Assembly (NCBI GenBank): GCA_029379385.1
Contig: CM055607.1
Coordinates: 15,810,001 to 15,874,000, forward strand
Length of the DNA stretch: 64,000 nt
Source: Quillaja saponaria
Lineage: Eukaryota > Streptophyta > Magnoliopsida > Fabales > Quillajaceae
Direction of reading: 5' to 3'
In this document: positions 4,516-50,826 of the stretch, piece by piece
Numbering within the stretch: the first letter of the stretch is position 1
Layout: every line of letters starts with the position of its first letter
Translations under genes and position numbers: made by a program
Notes under the pieces: model-generated
The model's input: the letters and a program-made list of their open reading frames with translations, nothing else
What the model was told of the DNA's origin: nothing
Database searches by the model: none

Positions 4516-7500
4516 TTAAGCAGACCTCTTACTGTCCACTGCTTCCTTGAGTTTTCTCCCTAATGCATAAGCCAAGGGAGGGGGAACAGCATTTCCAATT
4601 TGCTTGTGCTTGTTCTGGATGCTACCAGAAAACTGGTAGGTATCGGGAAAACCCTGCATACATCAAACTAGCAATGATTAACAAAGGCCTACGCAGGAAG
4701 AAGGAAATGAAAAAACTAGAGATCAGAAAACAGAACATGTAATATTATAAAAGTAAGTCTCTGCCTCAGGATGCAGTAACCTCAATTTTCAAATGCAATT
4801 ATAGGCTTACTTGGGATCTGGCACATTCTCGAACTGTAAGAATCCTGTCTTGGTCAGGATGAAAGCACATTCCCACTTTCCCCATTGGTTGAGGATCTGT
4901 AATTGAAGTTGGGAAGTTTCCTTCCCAATCCAACCTCCCAAACAGCCCCTTCCATTGATTGTGCCGCTTGGCTGTGTTTGGCAGGCACCATGGTATCAAA
5001 TCAACTACTTGTCCAGTAGACAACTTAATCTGCATTATAGATCAGCTCTTATCAGGACTGTCAACCTGAGAAACCCTACAACATTTAGCTTATTTCAACA
5101 ATACCTTTTCATCAGGAAGATCTCGCCAATCGGCACCTGGTCGCTTAGGAATTTTCTGACATCGAATCAAATTCAACTCATTCATTTCTTTTGAAATATG
5201 ATCTGTCAAGACGACCATATTCCCTCGGATTTTCTTTTGGAACCATGAAACAGGGTCATGTTGATACTGCAATTGGACGGTAAGTTGAACACATAGGGAA
5301 AAGTCGAATTAATAATAAAGTAAAAGAACATAAAACATTTTGTATCACTTATACCTCCAAGTTTGTCCTAGAGGCTCCATTTCCAACCGTTGGGAGATCG
5401 CCAATTGTATCCCTTACAGTTATTGCACGGAATGGTGCTCCACTAGCAGTACTTCGGACTGCAGCATACTGTAAGTTTTCTGATAACGAGATTTTCAACT
5501 CTGGTGCATTAAAGACATGCATTGGCTCTGGCCATTCAGGAAGAATCTCCTCAGGGGATGCTGCCCATATAAAAGCACGTTTTCTTGACTGTGAAACTCC
5601 ATAAGCTCCAGCCTCTAGGATACCAAACCGCACCTTAAAACAAGTAAAAGCAGCTTCAGTTAGTTCCTGAGTCTAATAAATCACAGAAATCTATACCCAG
5701 ATCCACAAAAACATCCCTGCAGTCCAACCTATTAAGAACAAATGATTTTTGACATCCATAAATAATCCCATATTTACCAATTACCACCCAATTAGAACCT
5801 TTTTCAAGTTTTTTCATTATAAGAACTTGACCAATATTTACCTGATATCCCATCTCAAGAAGTGAAGCCACAGTTAGACGGAATGTCTGTCCTTTATTGA
5901 AAGACACAAAGTTCCTCACATTCTCCAGGAGGAAATACTTTGGACGAAAGTAATCAGCAAACGACAGGAATGCTAAGATCATCTCGCACTGAACTTTACT
6001 CCAAGTGCTCTGATTGAACCTATTCATTCCAGAAAATCCCTACAGAAACAAAGCAATGTTTAATAGTTGCTTAAATAATTTATCTAGTAGGGAAAAATTA
6101 TACAAACCTGACATGGAGGCCCTCCATTGATAAAATCCACTTGCCCTGGCATCGGCAGATCATTAATCAGCTTCTCATCTAATGATGCAGCCAATTCTGC
6201 AGCTTCAGAAGTTGAAATACAATCATCTACATCCCCACACTTTTCCATCACAGCCCTGCATCACAATCCAATTAGAAATCACATACACAATGGGTATTTT
6301 TCTCCCACTTTTTCCTTTCTGGGGTGATTGGGAGGGAGGGAGTCATCTCATTGCAATCATTACCTAAGGATGACATTGCAATTATTAATAACCATCAGTG
6401 CCTCAGAATGATTGAGCTTGAATGCATCTCCAGCGGGCTCTTCATACTCTATTGCCCACTTCGTTAATGAAACACCTGCAACGTTTAAGCAGCAATAGAC
6501 ATATATGTAAAGATTGATAGTACAAATGATCATATTTATAACTGTATTACTGACAAATAGATTACCTGCACGCTGCAATCCCTCTGATAGGCCACCACAA
6601 CCGGCAAAAATGTCTAATGTTGCTAAACGATTCTCCTCAGATGCTTCTCTTTGTTTCTCAGATTCTAAATTGTTTTCCGCCTCTATACACTTACCCTTTT
6701 TCTTTTTAGCTGCAGTATCACCAGCCATCTTTCCAGTTGAGTACCTTATTTTGGTATGAGCTGGCAACTGTCCAAAAAAGATATTGGAACAACATTAATA
6801 GTTAAACTTATCCAAGCTTAATTATGCACCATTAAAAGTTTGAGGAACAATGACTATCAGATAGATTTCCTGAATAATTGGAAAGCATAATTCCTTTTAA
6901 CCTAATAACAATATGCATAGGTTATTGAATGAGATAAAGAATATCGAATAGAATTACATAATTTAACTTAATAGCAATATGCATAGGTTATTGGATGAGA
7001 TAAAGAATATCGAATAGAATTACATGGTACATGTAATAACCAATAGTAAAACATTATATAGGAAGTATATGAAATATGATGGGAGATATAGATAGCTCAT
7101 AATTGGTACACCTGCTTAGTGGGTACAAAACTCTGCAACTTACTAGTCAAGACAGCCAAATGCGTTCTTGCAAAAAACTGTCAGTTCTGGCCAAGAAACA
7201 GATCAGAATGGCCTGACTGATTGAACCAGCCAGGCTAGGCCTGTTCTAATGCAAAAACTAATGTAATTTCATAAATCAGAGATCTTTGCTGCCATTTCTA
7301 TGGAGTAATCTAGTATATATTGCAAATAAATGAGCAGAAGACAAATTACCTGCTTGAGCGACCCATTAGAAGGATCATACAAATGTTCACAGAAAAAGGA
7401 TATGTTCAAATATGGCAGGAGCACAGCATGCTGGAAGATCATTCTTCTTTCTGACTTTACATTTCCCTTCTAAAGAATCAATGGATATTATACATGTTTC

Positions 7501-10500
7501 TTCACTGTAGTAGACCTAATAACCAAAAACATTGTTAAAATGGGATATACATAGAATGTGAGTGTTTGATTTCAGGAATTTTAAAATGATACCAGGTAAA
7601 TATTTTTCACTATGTAAGTGGCTTTTACCTCTCGAATATCAGAATGGTATGCCTTCTCACTTGATATATCTTCTGGTCTGTAAAACCTTCTGACTTTAAC
7701 CTGAGTAGATTTGACTTCAGCTCGCTTTAATTCTTTTTGGACAATGATCTCCAAGAGTTGGCATATGACATATGCTCTCAACCCTACATTCCTCCCACTC
7801 TTGAAAGTTCCTTGCTCTACCCTTTCCTCAACAAAATAGCAAGGGCTTACATACACAAAATCATGAACAGTGTACTCTGTTCCGCTGTAGACAAAACCAG
7901 TTGCAGAATTCAATTTAAACTTCTCCTTCTGTGTCTCTTTTAATTCGCAAGAATGGCAGATGCCAGAGCCTATACCCATAGTGTCAAATGGAAGACTAAT
8001 GAAAGCACCTCTTTCAGGCCAGTACAGACTTTTACAATAGAATTCTATTGGTAGGCCTTTCTTCATCCTCTCTTCTGCTCTAGATCTATCTATTTTACTT
8101 GCATTGACAATGTCCTTCCTATGCTGAAATCCCCAAAGCATTGGACGAATTTCAACTCTTGTTGTTTCCTTGACATCTTCCAATCTTATATCAGTGCACA
8201 AGTTAGTCAAAAATACCTCCCTCTCATAAGCAGCATTACCAAGAACAGTATCAGAACCCCGCTGCATCATTCTTCCATGCAACATTTTCCTTCCATCTGA
8301 AGATTCAAACAAGTATTCCACAAAATAGATATCAGGAAGTTCATGTGAATCATCATCTCCTACCAACACTGAACCCCCAGCGGTAATCACATCTCCACAG
8401 ACAATGGCTTGTCTAAACAGATCATACCCAGAACATGTTTTGTCAAAAGGCTCCGCATCCCATCTTATTTCCCTGTTCCTATGACATAACTTTGTATGTT
8501 TTGGAACTGAAGGTACTTTTTGGGTTCCCTCAATGAGTAACAATGTGTCCTCATCAGCATCATCATCGTCATGATCCTCTTGTTCATCAACTCCATCCTC
8601 CTCCTTCATTTCACTGGCATGCTCCCCTTTAGAATCCTCAGGAAGGTAATTTGAGTAATACTCTCCCCAAATTTTGTTAATAAGCTTTGTGGTTGTAGCT
8701 TGCATAGCTTTCCTGTTGGACACCACAGGAGCCATTGCTGCTCTAGGATTCAAATTTTTTTCGCTCTTTTGTACAGTCTTCTTCTTCACTAACCATTTCG
8801 TGTGGTGCCGCTCTTCCATCTTTTTTGCAAGACCAGCCACAAAGGCACACTTTCTGATCTTTGCATCAGGAAATTCTGCAAAGAGTTGCATTATTATCTG
8901 GCCATGGACCACAATGTATCTCTCAACAGCTGCAGCATCAGAAGCAATGTACGAGCGATGATCCTTACTAAGCTCAGATACTTTCTTGATGACATCCCCG
9001 AAAGAAAGCCGGGATACTCTGCTCTGCTCCTTTAATAATGAAATTATGTCTATAGCAACCTTAGCTGTTTTTAAAACAGGTTCATACCATGGTGCATACT
9101 GCTTGGACGGCTTCCCGAGTCTATACCTAAAAAGGGAGCAAAAAGTAATAAGCAGGAATGACAATAAAGAAACTTCCATCAACCAGGATATGCTATAATC
9201 CATACAAATCAATGACTATTTACCATTCCAATTATAAGGCCATCCAAATTCATTCATGAATGTAACATTGCCATCATAAATCCTTGCAAACGAGTACACA
9301 CATACACATACCATAAACAGATACCATAACACAAACAGGTTCCTTTTCTTTTATCTTTTAAGAAATATAAATAACATTATTAAGAGGAAAAAAAAAAGTC
9401 ACCATACCAGGCCATATCTGTTCGGATGGATATAAATATCATTGATGAACCAAATTCAATCATCCATTCTTTTATTGCACTCAAATAAATTGGCATTCCA
9501 TCAGCAACTTTTTCCCCTGAGCCACTGGAGGAAGACTGACTGGGATCATTATCAAGATAGAAACCACTTCCATCATCTGAAGTCATAACTCCTGACCCAA
9601 AGATGGTGACATCAATATCTGAACATGGTTTCATTGGAAGAAGTTCCAAAGAAATCAACCTTGAGTCCAAGTTATAGAGTGACCAATTATGAAGCATGCT
9701 TCGAGGGAGGTCATCAGTTTCATATACATCAAAGTCACTGTCAAAAACTATGAACTCATCAGTTTCTTGTACAGAGTTTTTGTAGTAAGCTGGCAGAGGA
9801 TAATCATTAGCGATTTCATCTTCGTTAATTTTAATGTAATATTTGTTTTTCGAAGAAGCTGAACCCTGATGTTTCTTCTGCTTCATTGACTGCCAGTACT
9901 CTTCTTCTTGTAGTAACCTTGCTAACTTTATATCCTCATCTTCGTCAACCTCACCTGTGTTTAAACTAGACTGACTTATTTTGCTCTCTTCATCTCCAAG
10001 TTTTATACCAATATTTAAACACTCACTTGCAGTTGTCAATTTTGCTTGCACAAAATTTCCATGCTTGAGACTTTCATCTCTAAGAGCAGCAAGAACAGGA
10101 ATATCTGAAAACTTCATGACACTTTTCTTTGAGGACATATCTAGACCTATCAGTTGCTTGTAGATAAACTCACCCTGGGAAACAATAAAGTCCTTTACAG
10201 ATGCACTACCAGAAAAGCACTTGCTTCCACTCATTGAACGAGCTATGCCAGCAAGCAACTCATCAAGGCTGCACTCAGGGTCCCCTCCAGAAGATTTTGA
10301 CAGCCTCTTATAAACCTCCACACATACACGAGCCTTTTCAAAGAAATGGTCATAGTGTTTTTTATAGTTGGTTGCTGGTTTCTGACATTCATAATCAGCG
10401 ATATCAGTTGAAAGCCATATCACTGGATATCCATCTTCATATCCAGATATGTCCCATGATTCAATCCGTCCGAAACCTTCACATCTGATTCCCTTTTCCT

Positions 10501-12807
10501 TTCTCTTGTCAGCATTTTCTTCCAGAGGCAATACAAGAGCAGAGATAAACATGTCATCAACTTCCAACATCTCAAGGGGTTGTGGAACACCCTCTGTATC
10601 ATGCAAAACAAATTCAGTAAGTCTTCTATTTGGGCGACCATCATCTTGTCCAGAAGTTAAGCATACAGCCAGAATCTCTTCATCGGCATATTGATCCTTC
10701 TTTATTTCAATACGAGAATCCTTTTCAGATATGGAAATGGATCTCTCCTTCAAATTTTTGCAGGCCGCAGCTCGTCTTGGCATTTTACGAGAAACAACAG
10801 GCACTTCATTTTTGTCAGACAAACTTCTCTTCTTTCCCTTTCGCCCATTCGTTGCTTCTTTTTTAGGATTTGTATCTGCTGTATTCTGTTTGCCTTTAGC
10901 ATTCTTCATTCCTAAGTATTAATGCAATGAAGCAGAAAGATTGTAAGTTTAAAGTCTTGTAAGGAGTAAAAACCCCAAAAAAATTAACATAAAGAATAAG
11001 ACACAATCTATGAACATCCTACTCATATCTTATACCAAGAGGAACGCAGATTAATCGAAAGGTAACAACCACAGAATATCCAAACAACCAAGACAAATGA
11101 ACAAAGAATGGGACAAGTAGAGAAAAAGAAAATAAGATATATGATATGAAATATAACTATTCTGTATGGTGGCATGATGCTAATGGAGGATAACAACAGG
11201 GTGAAAATTGCCTGAGCATTTTGTCATGTATGAAGAAATGCTATATTGATTCGCAAGATGGAAAAGGAAAACATAATACCATCAATAGCCAAACATAATA
11301 ACAAATACATATTATATAAGCCCGGTACTGGGAAAAGGACACATGTTATCATCCCTAATTAATTACAGTTAAACCTTACTTGATTTGTTGTGTGGAACAC
11401 AGATTGTCTACACCTTTCCTGGATAGATCCACATGGCAGAATCTATAATATTTTTTTTTTTAAATATCCATTTGGACAGCCAAGAGGAAAGATGAAATGT
11501 GATGGCGTTATCATTTAATTATTGAACAATGTCACAGTAGAAATTAACATGTATTAAGTAGATGTATTACATTTAAGCAAGAATGACAATAAAAGTTGAA
11601 TAGCAGGACAAGAAAAATAAGCATTGAAACTAAAAGAAAAAGGGAAAAAGAAAGAAATGTTTGTGCACACTAAGAGATATATCAAAGGGTTGCAGAACTT
11701 TCAGTTATAAGAACAACAATAATTGATTGCGAGTAGGCACAAACAAGCATATACGTTGATGCATGACAGAATCTGGAATGAAAAGACAACAGCAATACCA
11801 AGAATACAAAACAGTAGGACAAACAATAAACGTACTCAGCATTCGAAAAGTTTACTCTTTCCATTTTGAGAACATGAAGAAATATCAACCCTCTTGGCTA
11901 AAGGGGTTGAAAGAAAAATACATGCAGAGGCCTCTACCCACTGCACCAGAAGGGTTCAGGGACTATAACTTATTATATTGCAGTGCCTAGAGGGTTGAGC
12001 ACAGCAAAACTCTTTTTAATTTCCATAACATAACCACTCACCCAGTTGATCTATTCCGGGGCTAAATCATAATATATATAGCATATCAAATTTTCAGAAC
12101 TATGATATATACCCTGATCCTGACAGAACTACCACCCAAAAAAAAAAAAGAACTAAAAAGTCTCAAGAGCAAATTAATGATTAAAAAACCAGTTTAATTC
12201 AGGGGAGCAGATGAAAAACCTTCAAGATCAAAATTTTTTTTCTTTTTCTATAATTTGATAAATATACTATTTAAAATTGAAGTTACCTACAGATATGAGT
12301 AAATAATATATGGCCTTAAATAGACCAATCTTTCAATTAGGAGTTAACTGAAAAGGGATGTCAACATTAAGATGAAATATTAGAATATGACTTCCGTATG
12401 TCAGAAAAATAAAATAGCAGCCAGCCCAATTCTTTGGCACTGAGGAAAAAAGATTTCTCTGTTGTGTAGCGAGCAACAAGCTAAACTGGAAGTTTACAAA
12501 TTGAACGAAAATGGGTATTGTCTCATGTTGATAAAAGAAAACCCAACAAAAAAGAAACAAGACTATCTCATTTATCGCAGGTTCTCATAAACAAGCTAAA
12601 CTGAAATTGTTATGATTTAAGTACAAGATGCGTCCACGAAAACCAGTCAGACCCTCCATACACTGATTACAAAAACCTAGAGTTTCTGAAGCCGTAAAGC
12701 CAAAACTGAAGCAGATGCTAAAAATTCCTTTTACCTGGTGATGATTTGGAAGAATCACTTGTGGAAGACCCATTGGGCACTTGAGAATCCAAAGTAACAG
12801 ATCCCAT
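4516..12807 (-). CDS. MET1: DNA (cytosine-5)-methyltransferase, MET1/DNMT1 type, frameshifted in exon 4
   Basis: Maintenance methyltransferase that copies CG methylation after replication in the nucleus. Coding exons (minus strand): 12735-12807, 9408-10911, 7629-9126, 7350-7515, 6566-6767, 6364-6475, 6108-6255, 5842-6039, 5355-5633, 5105-5266, 4811-5029 and 4516-4653. All introns are GT-AG and phases agree. Intended product is about 1565 aa, normal for MET1. Domains: basic N-terminus, two replication-foci domains (about 115-250 and 390-600), an acidic stretch near 700-720, two BAH domains (about 770-900 and 945-1090), a Lys-rich linker, then the catalytic domain. Motifs: [62 protein letters not shown]. 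Exon 4 has one extra base, so the frame meets TGA at 7387-7389 and would give about 1067 aa ending in BAH2, without the catalytic domain. The start ATG is in exon 1, spliced across a 1.8-kb intron. Either the allele is dead or the base is a sequence error. Confidence 0.95.
6904..7025. repeat. 66-bp tandem duplication in MET1 intron 4
   Basis: The segment starting 'aataacaatatgcatagg' at 6904 recurs at 6970 with one or two substitutions, giving two adjacent copies of about 66 bp. It lies wholly within the intron between exons 4 and 5 and has no coding content. Confidence 0.85.
7387..7399 (-). other. 1-bp frameshift and premature stop in MET1 exon 4
   Basis: On the minus strand the exon reads in frame to FEHI and then through 'cctttttctg' into TGA. 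MET1 proteins continue here as a conserved [17 protein letters not shown] stretch. The sequence supports that reading only if one base of the CC/T5 run is surplus. After that, the downstream frame ([14 protein letters not shown]) and the exon 5 join are correct. Exon 4 is 166 bp, whereas phase on both sides requires 165. A homopolymer run is a common place for a consensus error, so a sequencing artefact is a serious alternative to a real mutation. Confidence 0.85.
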
Positions 12808-13300: not shown

Positions 13301-15477
13301 TTAGCAACGAGATAAGAAATCTCTATTTTGTCGTATTTTTTATTTGTTATATAAATTATTCGAAAGAATTCAGCATTCAAATTATTATTTATAGAAAATG
13401 ATTTTCAAAAATATATTTGTAAAAGATAGAAGAAATCAAAAGATACTGCATCCCTTCATTTATTTACTTTTAAAACGTGTCAATCCATTGATTTGGTGTT
13501 CTACACGACAAATCGAAAACGATATCTAAATCTATCTAAATTTAGCAATGGAATCACCATTACAAATATTGCTCAACCACAACTGGGTGAGTACAACACC
13601 AGTGGCAAGAAATGTTGTATTGCAATCATGAAAGTCAAACTTTCTCGTGGTTTTGTCCAATTCCAAGTGATAAAGAACTCCCAAGAATTTTGCATTTGCA
13701 ACATGGAAAACCCATCTCTGTCCTTTGATTTCAAATCGGTAATAAAAGATGTTGATTTTCAAATGTAAAGTCATGAGAAACATCAACATGCTTGAAAATC
13801 GGAGATTTTAGCTTTTATTTCTAATCACAATAACACTCTCGTTTTAACTTATTTTTATTAACAGATAATGAGATTTATAAGAATAATGTTGTGTCATATT
13901 CAGGTTTACGAGTCAATCTCCGTTATAACACAAAAATATTATATAGTTACCGTGCTAACCTGTTTTCAATTCAAACTCATTTATGATCAACCTTAATCCC
14001 TAGTTTCAAGTTAGATTTGCATGTCATGTTAGAAATTGTCACCTCTATCTATTTCAAACATATATTTTATGAATTCTGAGCAAACAAATGAAGATTTAAG
14101 ATGAAAGGAAATAATCTTAAAGGAGAAAGAGGAAAAGTATAGTAGTAAAACAACTTGCTTACCTTTTTCCTTGATATGGGTACAAATAAATCAAAAGTCG
14201 AAAGGAATGGAGGAAGCACAAAGAGTTAAGATCATATGGTGAGCATATGGAGGGGTGAGGGGTGAGGGGTGAGGGGTGAGGGGTGAGGGGTGAGGGGTGA
14301 AAGGGGTGACAATCAGGTTTGATATAGGCCAAGTAGTTGGCACCGTAGAAGTACAAGTTATTTGCCTTCTTCTTTTGTTTTTTGGTTAATAAATGAAAAG
14401 GTAAGTAAGGTATTCATTTATTCTGGCAGGTAATATTGTATCCACATTATATAAGTTATATCTGAAAGAATCTCCACCATATTTATGTCAGAATCGAAGT
14501 TAAAGATTTTTCAATAGTAGTCACAATCATGCAGAATAACGTAAATTTACTTCCAAAAAAAATTGTCAAAAAAACTCGAACTCTCAATCTCAATCTCACG
14601 GAATGAGCACTTCTTTTTACTTTCTTGTTGAAATACAATGTTACCCATTTATTCCAGGAATTTGAAAAAATTACACAAAACAAATAACCCTTTAGACAAA
14701 TAAGTAATCATTTATTGATATTTTCACCCAAAAAAAAGACAATTTACCGATATTTAAATCATTGAATTGTCTAGTTACTTATAATATATATAATTAAGGT
14801 TTCCTTTTTACTTCTGTTACCTCTTAAATAAATAATTAAAAAGAATGATTTATCCCTTAATTACTGATAATTATTAACTCTGATATTAATTAAAGGTGTA
14901 CAATTTCTGTCACTTACAAAGTTCATCTTCACTCTCCAGTCAATTGTTTACTTAACCAAACACCCTTCAGAGTCCATATTGATTTTCTCAGGAGAAGAGA
15001 AAATTATATTAGTTTTTTCTTAACGAAACACATAACTTTATTTACCCTTCTTGTCAATGTCAATATTGTGGTCATTCTCATTCTCATATGCTTTGAGCTA
15101 ACACAAAAATTGGACCTAGAAAGCACTTTAACAGTATGACTTTCCAGTGGGTATTCTTACCCAAAAAAAAAAAATTGCAGGGTATGAGATAAACCAGATA
15201 CTGGACAATCATCTTGTATCTTCTTGATTTTGATTATTAGATTAGATGAATTAATTGAGTTTGATTTACATTTACATTAACTTTTTTCTATAAATCAACA
15301 GAAGAGAGAGGGGGCAAAGGAGAGAAAAAAAAAAGAACCAAGAAGAAGGAGGAAGCAGAGAAAACGAAGTTTGAAGATGGTGAGAGAGAGAAATTGTGAA
15401 TATATAGTTAATTAATATGAAACCCGTCTAATTACAAATTAATATTTTTTTTTTAATAATAATTTAAAAAATTTAAT
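13301..15477. other. AT-rich intergenic DNA
   Basis: No exon or RNA gene recognised. The only clear structure is the 7-bp minisatellite at 14252-14309. A phrase 'ttgtgtttggtttagca' near 13292 resembles the termini of small transposons seen elsewhere in the window, but no partner was found. Confidence 0.45.
14252..14309. repeat. (GGGGTGA)n minisatellite
   Basis: Seven perfect head-to-tail copies of the 7-mer GGGGTGA run from 14252 to 14300, followed by 'aa' and one more copy. The G-runs are all on the plus strand, so four-stranded G structures are possible on that strand. It is not the plant telomere repeat (TTTAGGG). Confidence 0.95.
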
Positions 15478-45591: not shown

Positions 45592-45711
45592 TGATGAGTT
45601 GAGTGAATCAAAGTATATTCATCATATTCAAAGTATGTACATCCTAGTATATATACTAGACAAGGGTTATTACCCAAACACCCTTATTACCCTTAACACA
45701 CATACACAACA
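45592..45711 (-). repeat. 3' LTR of the copia element, 120 bp
   Basis: It starts 'tgatgagttgagtgaatc' and ends 'cacatacacaaca' on the plus strand, and matches the other LTR over its whole length. It includes 'tagtatatatacta', a palindromic TATA-like stretch. Confidence 0.95.
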
Positions 45712-45722
45712 CTCCCCCTCAA
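45712..45722 (-). other. Polypurine tract of the copia element
   Basis: On the minus strand 'gagggggag' abuts the start of the 3' LTR (TGTTGTGTATG), the position where plus-strand DNA synthesis is primed. Confidence 0.85.
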
Positions 45723-48700
45723 GATGGTGCATAAATATCTCTCATGCCCATCTTGCAAACAATAGAATGAAAAACTAAACTACTAAGTCCTTTTGTAAAG
45801 ATATCGGCCAATTGGCTTTCAGATCTTACAAATGGTATACAAATGAGACGAGAGTCTAGTTTCTCTTTAATAAAATGTCTATCAATTTCAATGTGTTTTG
45901 TACGATCATGCTGGACTGGATTGTGTGCTATATTGATTGCAGCGGTATTGTCACAATATAGCAGAAGAGACTTTTCCCAAGATAATCTGAGCTCTTCCAT
46001 CAACTTCTTAAGCCATAACAACTCACAAGTCCCGTGGGCCATCGCTCTGTATTCTGCTTCAGCACTAGATCTAGAAACCACAGTCTGCTTCTTACTTCTC
46101 CATGACACTAAGTTCCCACCAACAAATGTGCAATATCTTGAAGTAGACCTTCTATCATCAAGTGATCCAGCCCAATCTGCATCTGTATAGGCTTCTAGTT
46201 TCAAGCTTCTATTGTTTTCAAAGAGAAGTCCCTTCCCAGGTGCAGATTTCAGGTATCGCAATATACGATGAACTGCATCCAAATGGTCGGAACGAGGGTC
46301 ATGCATAAACTGGCTAACCACACTAACAGCATAAGCTATGTCTGGACGAGTATGAGATAGATAAATTAGCCTTCCAACCAGTCGTTGATATCTCTCTCTA
46401 TCAACATATTCTCCATCTCCACTTTGTAACTTGTGGTTTGTCTCAATAGGTGTAGTTGCAGGCCTACATCCAAGCATACCTGTCTCTTCAAGCAAATCAA
46501 GGACATATTGCCTTTGAGATAGAAAGATACCCCTGTCTGAATGAGCAACTTCAATCCCAAGAAAGTAACATAGCTTCCCTAAATCCTTGATTTCAAATTC
46601 CTTGGCAAGATGACTTTTCAACTTAGATACCTCTGCAGGGTTATCACCTGTCACAACTATATCATCAACATAGACAATAAGGATAGTAATCCTCCCATGA
46701 CAGTGTTTTACAAACATTGTGTGATCAGCATTGCTTTGTTGGTATCCAAAAGAAATCATCGCCTTCTGAAATCTATCAAACCAGGCTCGGGGTGACTGTT
46801 TGAGACCATACAAGGACTTCTTCAGCTTACATACCTTCCCTTCAGTCTTTTGACATGAGAAGCCTAGAGGGATCTCCATATAGACTTCCTCAGCAAGATC
46901 TCCATGCAAGAACGCATTCTTTACATCCAATTGCTGTAAGTCCCAACCAAGATTTGCTGCACAAGAGATAAGAACTCTGATAGAATTCATCTTGGCAACA
47001 GGAGCAAATGTTTCTTGATAATCCACCCCATAAGTTTGAGTGAATCCTCTTGCAACAAGTCTCGCTTTATATCTCTCAATCGTCCCATCAGCTTTTCTCT
47101 TAATGGTAAAGACCCATTTACAACTAATAGCTCGTTTTCCATGAGGGAGACTAGCAAGCTCCCAAGTATCATTCTTGGATAAGGCTTTCATTTCCTCAAC
47201 CATTGCATCCTCCCATTTAGGATCAGCAAGAGCTTCTTTCCAATCCTGTGGAATAGACACAGAAGACAGAGTGGAGACAAATGCTCTATATGATGGAGAC
47301 AAAGATTTATATGAGACATGATTAGAGATAGGATGATGAGTACAAGTCCTAACTGCTTTTCTAATTGCAATAGGAAGATTAGTATCATCAATGACAGGAG
47401 AATCATGAGGTGTATTTGAAGAAGGAATAGCATCAGGAGACTTACAAGGATGTACCGGCATGGAAGCTGGGTCTGGAGAGAACTCTTGGCTAGGTAAAGC
47501 AGGTTCGATGGCTATTTTTCCATGTTGTCTACATCTGCGGCTATACTTAAGCAAATCCGGCTTTGCTAGCCTCGTATGAATCTCATTATTCCTCTCTTCT
47601 TCCAGTATACTCTCATCCTGTTTTGCTTCATCTTCCTTCTCTTTCATTCTGTCCTCTATTAACAACTCAGGTAGCCACTCCCCCTTACTACCATAAGACA
47701 CCTCTTCCTCACTATTACTCTCCCCCTGAAAAGGTGTCGTGGAGAAATAAGGATTGGATTCATGAAAAGTGACATCCATGCTAACATAAGTCTTCCTAGT
47801 AGGAGGATGGTAGCATTTGTATCCCTTCTGAGTGGCAGAGTACCCAATAAATATACATTTCAGTGCTCGATGATCAAGCTTACTGATGTTCTTTCCGTGC
47901 TCATGAACAAAGCAAACACAACCAAATACTTTAGGAGGAACCACAAAGGAACAATTACCTTGAAGAACATCCAGAGGGGTGTTAAAATCAAGAGTCCGAA
48001 GAGACATACGGTTAATGAGATAAGCTGCAGAGAGAACTGCATCTCCCCAATAAGCCTTAGGGACATTCATAGTAAACATGAGGGACCGTGCTACCTCCAA
48101 AAGATGTCGATTTTTGCGTTCAGCTGTACCATTCTGAGCCGAGGTGTCAACACAACTAGTTTGATGCATTATGCCATGATCCCGAAGATATTTCTGAAAA
48201 TTACCCTCTGTATACTCTGTACCATTATCACTCCTTAAAATCTTAACTTTACAATCAAACTGTGTACAAACAAGTTTATGAAACATCTGAAAACAAGTGA
48301 ATACTTCATTTTTAGCACGCAATAAGTACACCCAGGTAGTGCGACTAAAACAATCAATGAATGTAACAAACCACTTGTAACCAGATAAAGATACAACACG
48401 ACTAGGACCCCAAACATCAGAGTGAATAAGAGCAAAAGGAGTAGTACTTTTATTATTCAATAAAGGATAAGAAGCACGCTTATGTTTAGCAAATTCACAG
48501 GCATCACATAGCAAATTGTTCATAGTACAATGCTTAAGTAAGTCTGGAAACATGTTTCCTAGAACCAAAAAAGATGGGTGTCCTAAACGGCGATGCCACT
48601 GAACTAACTGCTGTTGAGAAGTAATAGAAGCACTACTCTGAAGAGATTGACTAGAAGCAACTGTGCCAACTGTGTTTGCCAAAATACTAGGACCATATTC

Positions 48701-50131
48701 CAATAAGTATAGCCCATCTTGCTCTTTACCATAGCCAATCGTTCTTCCTGTTCCCAGTTCCTGAAATTTACAACAACAAGAATCAAATATAGCTTGGCAA
48801 TTTAAGTCTCTAGTGATTGAGCTAATTGACAAGAGATTCATGGAAAATTTAGGAACGTGAAGAACAGAAGACAATGGTAAGGTAGGAGTGCACTGAATAG
48901 AACCTTTCCCAGAAATAGTGGACAAGGAGCCATCGGCTACCCTCACCTTGTCTTTACCAGAACAAGGGAAATAAGTAGAAAAATTTCTAGAAGTACCAGT
49001 CATATGGTCGGAGGCTCCAGAATCAATGATCCAAGGCTCTGAATCTGTGGTGGAATGAGTGCCAAGGGCATGATGAGAAGAGGCATGATGAGAAGATGCA
49101 GCTGAAGTGGAAGGACAACCATCAAGTTTTGCCATCAGACGCCTAAGATGCTGCATTTCTTCAGGATTAAGTGCACTTGATTCCGTAGAAGGTGATGACT
49201 CAACAGTGTCAGAGACATGAGCTCGTGATCTAGGCGGTCCTACAAACCTGCCACCTCTGCCTCTAGTAGGACGACCATGTAACTTCCAACATGTGTCTCT
49301 AGTATGACGAGTCTTACCACAATAATCACACTGCAAGTCATCCTTATCACTACCCCTTGCAATCTCAATCCCTCTAGTATGCACTCCTTTAGATTCTTTC
49401 GGAATAGGAGTTGCTACCATTGCAGATCTCTCACGAGTTACTACATGAAGCATAGCTATCCTCCTACTCTCCTCCTGTTGTACATAAGCATATGTCTGCC
49501 TCAGATTTGGAAAAGGATCTCTTCCCAAAACCTGAACTCTAATCTGATCATACTCAAGATTAAGTCCAGCCAAGAAATCATACACTCTCTCCTTATCCAC
49601 CACCTTCTTGTAAGAAGCTGCATCCGCAGGATGTACTGGCTGATACTCCTGATAGTAATCCAACTCTTGCCATAAACCACTCAGTTCAGCAAAGTACTGA
49701 GCAATAGTCAATTCTCCCTGCTTAGTCTCATGGAGCTTCTTCCTAAGCTCAAAGACTTGAATATCATTTCCAACTTGAGAATAAGTTTGGCACAAAGCTG
49801 TCCACATCTTATCAGCAGAATCAAGTAACAAATAACCACGGGAGATTTGTGGTTGCATAGAGTTAATCAACCACGACATCACTAAGGAGTTTTCCGAAAT
49901 CCATGACTCCAATAATGGATCTCCATCAGCTGGTTTCCTTTTGCTACCAATAACATAACCATACAACCCACGTGCCTGAATAAATAATAGGCACGAGCGA
50001 GACCAAGCCAAGAAATTGTTGCCATCAAACTTCATCGGGCTAATTTGGAGGGAAGGATTATCGTTAGAGATTCCAACTCTACTCCTACTCCCACTACTGC
50101 CATTCCCAGGACTAACAACTTCCTCTGACAT
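45719..50131 (-). CDS. Copia gag-pol polyprotein
   Basis: A single uninterrupted frame of 1470 aa. Domains in order: gag (about 30-230), CCHC zinc knuckle CDYCGKTRHTRDTCWKLH (268-285), aspartic protease with DSGASDHM (about 371-378), integrase zinc-binding HHCC region (about 513-546), integrase core with catalytic Asp in HSDVWGP and SDNGTEY and a Glu in the QNGTAERKNR region, reverse transcriptase (about 985-1230) with YVDD at 1154-1157, and RNase H (about 1330-1460) with DADWAGS and AEAEYRA. Integrase before reverse transcriptase defines Ty1/copia. All catalytic motifs look intact, and gag and pol are one frame with no shift, as is usual for plant copia. The stop overlaps the polypurine tract. 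Confidence 0.97.
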   Translation of the reverse strand: MSEEVVSPGNGSSGSRSRVGISNDNPSLQISPMKFDGNNFLAWSRSCLLFIQARGLYGYVIGSKRKPADGDPLLESWISENSLVMSWLINSMQPQISRGYLLLDSADKMWTALCQTYSQVGNDIQVFELRKKLHETKQGELTIAQYFAELSGLWQELDYYQEYQPVHPADAASYKKVVDKERVYDFLAGLNLEYDQIRVQVLGRDPFPNLRQTYAYVQQEESRRIAMLHVVTRERSAMVATPIPKESKGVHTRGIEIARGSDKDDLQCDYCGKTRHTRDTCWKLHGRPTRGRGGRFVGPPRSRAHVSDTVESSPSTESSALNPEEMQHLRRLMAKLDGCPSTSAASSHHASSHHALGTHSTTDSEPWIIDSGASDHMTGTSRNFSTYFPCSGKDKVRVADGSLSTISGKGSIQCTPTLPLSSVLHVPKFSMNLLSISSITRDLNCQAIFDSCCCKFQELGTGRTIGYGKEQDGLYLLEYGPSILANTVGTVASSQSLQSSASITSQQQLVQWHRRLGHPSFLVLGNMFPDLLKHCTMNNLLCDACEFAKHKRASYPLLNNKSTTPFALIHSDVWGPSRVVSLSGYKWFVTFIDCFSRTTWVYLLRAKNEVFTCFQMFHKLVCTQFDCKVKILRSDNGTEYTEGNFQKYLRDHGIMHQTSCVDTSAQNGTAERKNRHLLEVARSLMFTMNVPKAYWGDAVLSAAYLINRMSLRTLDFNTPLDVLQGNCSFVVPPKVFGCVCFVHEHGKNISKLDHRALKCIFIGYSATQKGYKCYHPPTRKTYVSMDVTFHESNPYFSTTPFQGESNSEEEVSYGSKGEWLPELLIEDRMKEKEDEAKQDESILEEERNNEIHTRLAKPDLLKYSRRCRQHGKIAIEPALPSQEFSPDPASMPVHPCKSPDAIPSSNTPHDSPVIDDTNLPIAIRKAVRTCTHHPISNHVSYKSLSPSYRAFVSTLSSVSIPQDWKEALADPKWEDAMVEEMKALSKNDTWELASLPHGKRAISCKWVFTIKRKADGTIERYKARLVARGFTQTYGVDYQETFAPVAKMNSIRVLISCAANLGWDLQQLDVKNAFLHGDLAEEVYMEIPLGFSCQKTEGKVCKLKKSLYGLKQSPRAWFDRFQKAMISFGYQQSNADHTMFVKHCHGRITILIVYVDDIVVTGDNPAEVSKLKSHLAKEFEIKDLGKLCYFLGIEVAHSDRGIFLSQRQYVLDLLEETGMLGCRPATTPIETNHKLQSGDGEYVDRERYQRLVGRLIYLSHTRPDIAYAVSVVSQFMHDPRSDHLDAVHRILRYLKSAPGKGLLFENNRSLKLEAYTDADWAGSLDDRRSTSRYCTFVGGNLVSWRSKKQTVVSRSSAEAEYRAMAHGTCELLWLKKLMEELRLSWEKSLLLYCDNTAAINIAHNPVQHDRTKHIEIDRHFIKEKLDSRLICIPFVRSESQLADIFTKGLSSLVFHSIVCKMGMRDIYAPS

Positions 50132-50693
50132 GCTTAAGTAGAGAAATCAGCAAAGAAAACCAGCACTGGATGAACTAAAATACAGAGAACTCAACACCCA
50201 CCACCCACACGATCAACAAAACACCCAACCCTCTCAACAATACCTCCAGAACACTACCCAGAACTCAGAAGTACCTGCAGGCAACAAGATCATCCAAACA
50301 GATTCGAGAAACAGTACCCGCACCTAGGAGAATCGGGTCTGTGAGCTCTTTCTCCAAAAAACCAGGTTTTTCCTCCCAAGCAACCCTCGAAATCCCCTCT
50401 CCTATTCCACTCGAAGTCACCGAGGGCCTGAAGGAGGGAGACAGCTGCTTAACACGGCCGGAATTGAAGAATTCCGAGTTAGGTCACGAACTCAAAAGAG
50501 GCAAAATAGACCTCTGAAACCGCAGCAGATGGAGACGAAAACCTGGGGGTTTTGTTCGTCTTCTCGAGGCGAATCTGCCTGTGGTCTTCAATCCTGAAAA
50601 AGTCGCCGGAAAGTGCCGTACACGGCGGCGCCGGCGCCGGTCAACGGCGGCTCTGCGGCGGTCAACGGAGGTCCTAGCAGAGATTAGGGTTTT
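50132..50693 (-). other. Leader region of the copia element
   Basis: About 560 bp between primer-binding site and gag start. It is AT-balanced near gag but very GC-rich at about 50595-50670, where 'ggcggcgccggcgccggtc' forms a near palindrome. In retroelements the leader carries dimerisation and packaging signals. Assigning that role to this motif is inference. Confidence 0.6.
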
Positions 50694-50706
50694 GGCTCTG
50701 ATACCA
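50694..50706 (-). other. Primer-binding site, initiator tRNA-Met
   Basis: Directly downstream of the 5' LTR on the minus strand is TGGTATCAGAGCC, complementary to the 3' end of plant initiator tRNA-Met, the usual copia primer. Confidence 0.9.
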
Positions 50707-50826
50707 TGATGAGTTGAGTGAATCAAAGTATATTCATCATATTCAAAGTATGTACATCCTAGTATATATACTAGACAAGGGTTATTACCCAAACACCCTT
50801 ATTACCCTTAACACACATACACAACA
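50707..50826 (-). repeat. 5' LTR of the copia element, 120 bp
   Basis: No differences were found from the left copy at 45592-45711. It is followed by the second AATAT target duplication. Confidence 0.95.

Follow-up and report, generated by a model that had tools for sequence, protein, structure and literature searches.

Has the MET1 gene of Quillaja saponaria lost its methyltransferase half to a single extra base, or does that base exist in the assembly only? The window that we analysed, a 64-kb stretch (G000:C3:15810001-15874000; positions below are those of the window), carries a complete MET1-type gene on the minus strand, running from 12807 to 4516. As assembled, the single frame that joins the regulatory and catalytic halves of this gene is broken at 7399-7393. 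A literature search on the Quillaja saponaria genome and MET1 listed a single paper, which concerns the saponins of another plant. Judging from comparisons with paralogues, with outside homologues and with other gene families of the same assembly, we consider that the surplus base is probably a residual one-base consensus insertion and that the gene is intact in the tree.

The gene has a short first exon followed by eleven coding exons, and every junction is GT/AG. The first coding exon (12735..12807, on the minus strand like all MET1 features given here, with the end coordinate counted by hand from the sequence) starts at an ATG at 12807, encodes a 25-residue N terminus, MGSVTLDSQ..., that is contained in the public model P0001, and ends at the donor CAG/GTAAAA. 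The ATG of the gene model built here lies at 10909 in exon 2 (9408..10911, the start at 10911 being read by hand from the acceptor), which holds RFD1 and most of RFD2. According to the gene model and domain matches, exon 3 (7629..9126) holds the end of RFD2, BAH1 and most of BAH2. The methyltransferase half begins in exon 5 (6566..6767), where the motif DIFAGCGG was read, and GGPPCQ and LLENV were read in exons 7 (6108..6255) and 8 (5842..6039), respectively. The exon model further places exon 6 at 6364..6475, exon 9 at 5355..5633, exon 10 at 5105..5266, exon 11 at 4811..5029 and exon 12, with the normal stop codon, at 4516..4653.

The resulting domain order RFD-RFD-BAH-BAH-C5 methylase is that of plant MET1 (DNMT1 family). 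Pfam families PF12047 and PF01426 each match two stretches in the frame that precedes the stop, and PF00145 matches downstream of it; the RFD stretches were also recovered by a genome search. GGPPCQ, ENV and other motifs, whose roles we take to be catalytic, are all present, and P0001 is matched by PDB chains named DNA (cytosine-5)-methyltransferase 1 (best 9m5x, 2023 bits). The exon structure resembles that of the paralogue on C4, and the splice sites are kept, including all of those downstream of the stop.

The surplus base lies in exon 4 (7350..7515), which starts in phase 0 and counts 166 nt, while the downstream exons are open to the final stop only if it is counted as 165. On the minus strand a CC at 7399-7398 is followed by a T5 run at 7397-7393 (together 7393..7399), and the shifted frame then reaches a TGA at 7387..7389. 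This first stop is codon 1043 of the gene model without the short exon and codon 1068 when the 25-residue upstream exon is included. In the C4 protein the position equivalent to the shift is about residue 1049, which leaves some 18 residues to the end of BAH2, whose limits are borrowed from that protein (Pfam BAH to residue 1067). A second C precedes the T run in the window copy, but in none of the 5 other genomic copies of the exon with which it was aligned. It is the sole non-triplet indel relative to the intact C4 paralogue across 4.6 kb of coding sequence: all remaining indels between the two are triplets, and with codons compared in the C4 frame the window gene has no in-frame stop but the terminal one. 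The original prediction had placed one base too many in this exon, with a TGA at about codon 1068 inside BAH2, in a gene otherwise intact in its exons, splice sites and motifs; coordinates, exon phases, the copy alignment and the Pfam limits agree with it on each of these points.

Of the eleven main coding exons it is the third that contains the stop; the last exon junction lies a long way downstream, and nonsense-mediated decay is expected from such a position. We rejected a splice rescue by shifting the normal exon borders: on either side of 7399-7393 the exon is open in a different frame, and moving the normal splice sites cannot help.

The public Quillaja MET1 protein P0001 (1530 aa) sidesteps the stop by closing the exon 106 nt early at AAA/GTCAGA, which hides the frameshift by treating 7350..7455 as intron. 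To this cryptic donor a small and simple matrix, built from the twenty donors of the window MET1 and C4, assigns a score of 0.3, compared to 7.0-12.5 for those same twenty donors; among the 158 GTs of the two large exons, 30% reach this score of 0.3 or a higher one. A motif search among 120 listed homologues found such a join in P0001 only (0 of 119 others). We regard the splice as a gene-prediction artefact masking the shift. If the surplus base is an error, P0001 is wrong in BAH2, the C-terminal part of which is missing. Protein searches, for which the best 120, 120 and 22 matches were listed, named Quillaja only for P0001, P0057 and P0231, all from genome contigs. Most listed matches are unnamed; none of the 240 beyond P0001 and P0057 is more than 91% identical to these two, and the 22 reach 72% identity at most. 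At that search sensitivity no transcript of exon 4 was found in the protein database.

Further MET1 copies were sought with the exon 4 sequence, which gave six places including the window, and with the RFD family, and the resulting list may be incomplete. The original prediction had suggested looking for a second MET1 and comparing its exon 4, and this yielded an intact copy at C4:3.35M (public protein 1549 aa), whose counterpart of exon 4, at C4:3351897-3352065, lacks the surplus base. The copy at C1:18.53M (L007:1016-7349) has decayed, with 22 non-triplet indels and 12 premature in-frame stops, and its exons contain 15 one-base insertions versus 4 one-base deletions. Three copies near C6:10.6-10.8M have a common large deletion in the second big exon along with other lesions; the C6 copies contain 7 one-base insertions and 10 one-base deletions. 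Two C6 fragments are among the matches added by the RFD family search, and altogether five decayed copies or fragments (L008, L009, L011, L025 and L026; G000:C6:10.63-10.87M) lie within about 240 kb. At C3:11.30M (L021:1866-4271) a deletion has fused the first large MET1 exon to a later exon, and a 302-aa frame spans the fusion. The copy at C1:19.56M ends at the contig end and has two stops. Two short RFD frames on C8 gave zero blastn matches to the window MET1 exons.

To place the two intact-looking copies we used a tree of 42 proteins, hand-picked from the best 120 homologues listed and built by a quick method (LG+G4). In it C4 groups as sister to the window copy (SH-aLRT 99), next to the legumes; the terminal branch is 0.13 for the window copy and 0.30 for C4. 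The dS between them is 0.76. As this exceeds the Quillaja genome-duplication peak of 0.325 given in the available part of PMC13252982, the pair appears to predate that duplication, the two estimates having been obtained by different methods.

The window copy has been under constraint on both sides of the shift. Its branch has a dN/dS of 0.22 overall, 0.29 upstream of the shift and 0.10 downstream (bootstrap 0.05-0.20), and the C4-plus-stem branch has 0.11 downstream. For the C1 pseudogene the ratio is 0.62 overall and 0.81 downstream, the latter with a broad interval (0.35-5.0). Columns were counted as conserved if 97% or more of 40 outside MET1s agree in them. Downstream, the window copy keeps 267 of 269 such columns and C4 262; upstream, P0001 keeps 243 of 257 and C4 241. 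The 14 upstream misses of P0001 comprise 8 within its spliced-out segment and 6 substitutions. The window MET1 shows no sign of past decay. We therefore rejected an old pseudogene, given one frame lesion compared to the 22 non-triplet indels and 12 stops of C1 and a constraint that is not relaxed. A sole lesion with persisting constraint implies that the stop is either very recent or not real.

The same assembly offers controls in the GRAS and PPR-DYW families, which consist mostly of intronless genes. For GRAS, 78 matches correspond by hand count to 59 near-complete loci and 5 fragment loci. We inspected nine loci that were split, short or lesioned for frame switches, the other 50 standing outside that inspection. 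Five of them (L012, L013, L014, L015 and L020) have one switch each between long frames, all +1. A -1 switch and a stop occur in L017, several lesions in L016, one nonsense codon in L018 and probably an intron in L019; with the multi-lesion L016 excluded, 5/6 loci with one switch are +1. Alignment to paralogues identifies an extra base in 4 of the 5 +1 cases, the exception being L015. In MET1, L012, L020 and L013 the extra base duplicates the adjacent one. L013 has two extra bases relative to L017 and was left out of the dN/dS argument because L017 is itself broken. Compared to intact paralogues, L012 and L020 have dS of 0.31 and 0.36, dN/dS of 0.19 and 0.17, and no second frame lesion, which is the same signature as that of MET1. 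Both have intact duplicates, however, so their frameshifts could also be real losses, and this counts against a consensus error.

For PPR-DYW, 150 matches were scored of 197 candidates, and we used the best 67 by hand count (at least 137.5 bits). Of these loci, 51 have open frames of at least 400 aa, 15 have shorter ones without a stop, and 1 has a stop. Frame switches were examined in all 15 short-frame loci without a stop, the 51 longer ones falling outside this set. Seven loci (L031, L032, L033, L035, L036, L038 and L039) are otherwise complete, each consisting of two abutting frames with 645-1013 aa in total, and have one +1 switch each. L041 and L042 have two +1 switches each, L030 and L034 one +1 each in shorter chains with further lesions, and L044 a single -1 switch; no frame chain was obtained for L037, L040 and L043. 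Fifteen scanned pieces, among them one or more upstream pieces of every one of the twelve switch loci, proved to be PPR proteins. In these chains 13/14 switches are +1 (P = 0.0009 under equal directions, P = 0.17 if the insertion share of the C1 pseudogene is used), although any +1 called without an alignment, as in all of these loci and in GRAS L015, could be a -2.

We estimate by hand a rate of one switch per 13-22 kb of coding sequence. The lower rate, 1 per 22 kb, is based on the 59 GRAS domains, each about 1.1 kb long, which contain 3 in-domain abutting switches. The higher, 1 per 13 kb, is based on 67 PPR-DYW genes with an assumed length of about 2.1 kb and 11 switches, of which seven are those of the single-switch loci and four those of L041 and L042, two in each. 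A MET1-sized gene of 4.6 kb is thus expected to contain 0.21-0.36 switches, and the chance of one is about 0.19-0.30.

We infer that the control +1 switches are consensus errors and that the MET1 case is one of them. A consensus error is suggested because single +1 switches recur in otherwise intact genes and nearly all point in one direction, and MET1 falls in this class because it has one lesion, of the +1 type, repeating a neighbouring base and with constraint on either side. Regardless of direction, MET1, L012, L020 and seven PPR loci have a lone shift each, so that real losses would require several genes all to be caught at the first step. Decaying plant sequence is generally considered to favour deletions. 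The C6 copies, with 7 insertions versus 10 deletions, show no general insertion excess. The excess at C1, if real, would mean that decay here can favour insertions, which weighs against a consensus error; either there are insertion errors at C1 too, or decay in this genome can have such a bias. Also against it, errors are not everywhere: an apparently complete element at 45592-50826 (minus strand), which from the look of its protein we take to be of the Copia type, has a clean 4.4-kb frame of 1475 aa (45722-50146) flanked by identical 120-bp repeats.

Consensus errors of this kind have likenesses elsewhere. Gene-fragmenting frameshifts or residual indels made by long-read consensus errors are described in the accessible portions of PMC12007338 for small genomes and of PMC8812927 for bacterial ones. 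Public Quillaja reads of accession S10 (BioProject PRJNA914519) and RNA-seq data (PRJNA914309, SRR22829626-SRR22829649) are named in the part of PMC10972754 available to us. On the preferred reading, the published assembly of Quillaja saponaria would retain a one-base insertion at 7399-7393 in its consensus, and in the living tree the gene would be a normal MET1 maintenance methyltransferase, intact and well conserved.

The main alternative, to which we give a minor but appreciable chance, is that the frameshift is real and very recent, either fixed or heterozygous, with the transcript probably lost to nonsense-mediated decay and maintenance methylation carried by C4. That C4 is intact speaks for it, and so does the state of the other MET1-derived copies examined (C1, the three on C6, C3:11.30M and C1:19.56M), which are all dead; the insertion-rich decay of C1 means that a true +1 event would not be odd. 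There is also a precedent in wheat, where, in the accessible text of PMC4223845, the MET1 duplicates TaMET-5A1 and TaMET-5D1 are truncated before the methyltransferase domain, with a predicted product lacking it, while other copies are intact. The wheat copies, as described there, have deletions, premature stops and a higher group dN/dS, whereas a single shift and strong constraint characterize the window copy. The same text mentions that Arabidopsis METIII is considered a pseudogene, and, compared by description, it resembles the present case in being a presumed-dead MET1 member next to an active MET1. Against a real loss, the event must be very recent (a rough Poisson bound, scaled on C1, allows no more than about 0.007 synonymous changes per site), and neither a second lesion nor relaxed selection is seen. 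It leaves the recurrent isolated +1 shifts of the assembly unexplained, and the slowly evolving copy (0.13 compared to 0.30 for C4) is the unexpected one to go. It seems to us rather unlikely that the slow MET1 of the species, or of the sequenced tree, has just been deprived of its methyltransferase half and that CG maintenance now depends on the faster-evolving duplicate. The original prediction had named a very recent mutation, cover by a paralogue and a consensus error in the CC/T5 run as its options, and this was an apt choice. Its claim that the methyltransferase domain is lost stands insofar as the frameshift is present in the sequence, but real loss is not the best reading, in view of the selection downstream and the recurrent +1 switches.

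Two further readings also take the base to be real. In one, it is bypassed through the cryptic donor as in P0001, dropping 106 nt and giving a full methyltransferase with a BAH2 about 35 C-terminal residues short. P0001 is indeed built in this way, with the join in frame, and bypass would explain the continued selection on the methyltransferase half, but the weak donor, the restriction of the join to P0001 among the listed homologues, and the 8 conserved columns within the dropped segment make it very improbable. The other is that a stable protein with RFD and BAH domains and no catalytic domain is the real, selected product, and the 1042-residue frame does carry these domains. Such a product predicts relaxation downstream of the stop, and the opposite is found: selection there is at least as strong as upstream and all splice sites are kept, so we rejected a truncated functional protein and give this reading hardly any credence. 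The regulatory-half-only protein proposed in the original prediction would be unlikely even with a real base, the stop being so far from the last junction.

Returning to a consensus error as the preferred explanation, a notable share of intact genes would be falsely called broken in this assembly, given that 7 of the 67 best-scoring PPR-DYW loci share the signature. Anyone using this genome, which is mined for vaccine-adjuvant saponin genes, should then distrust unchecked frameshifts. If the loss is real instead, the locus would be a snapshot of a MET1 handover, with a core maintenance methyltransferase caught in the middle of its replacement by a paralogue.

A scan of the 64-kb window with Rfam at gathering scores gave zero matches. 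Several tandem repeats lie in or near the gene. A MET1 intron contains a 66-bp tandem duplication with 95% matches at 6896-7025. About 2.1 kb past the 3' end of the gene, a 142-bp unit is repeated in tandem about ten times (90% matches) at 957-2381, and a perfect 7-bp repeat, GAGGGGT, is present in 7.3 copies at 14250-14300.
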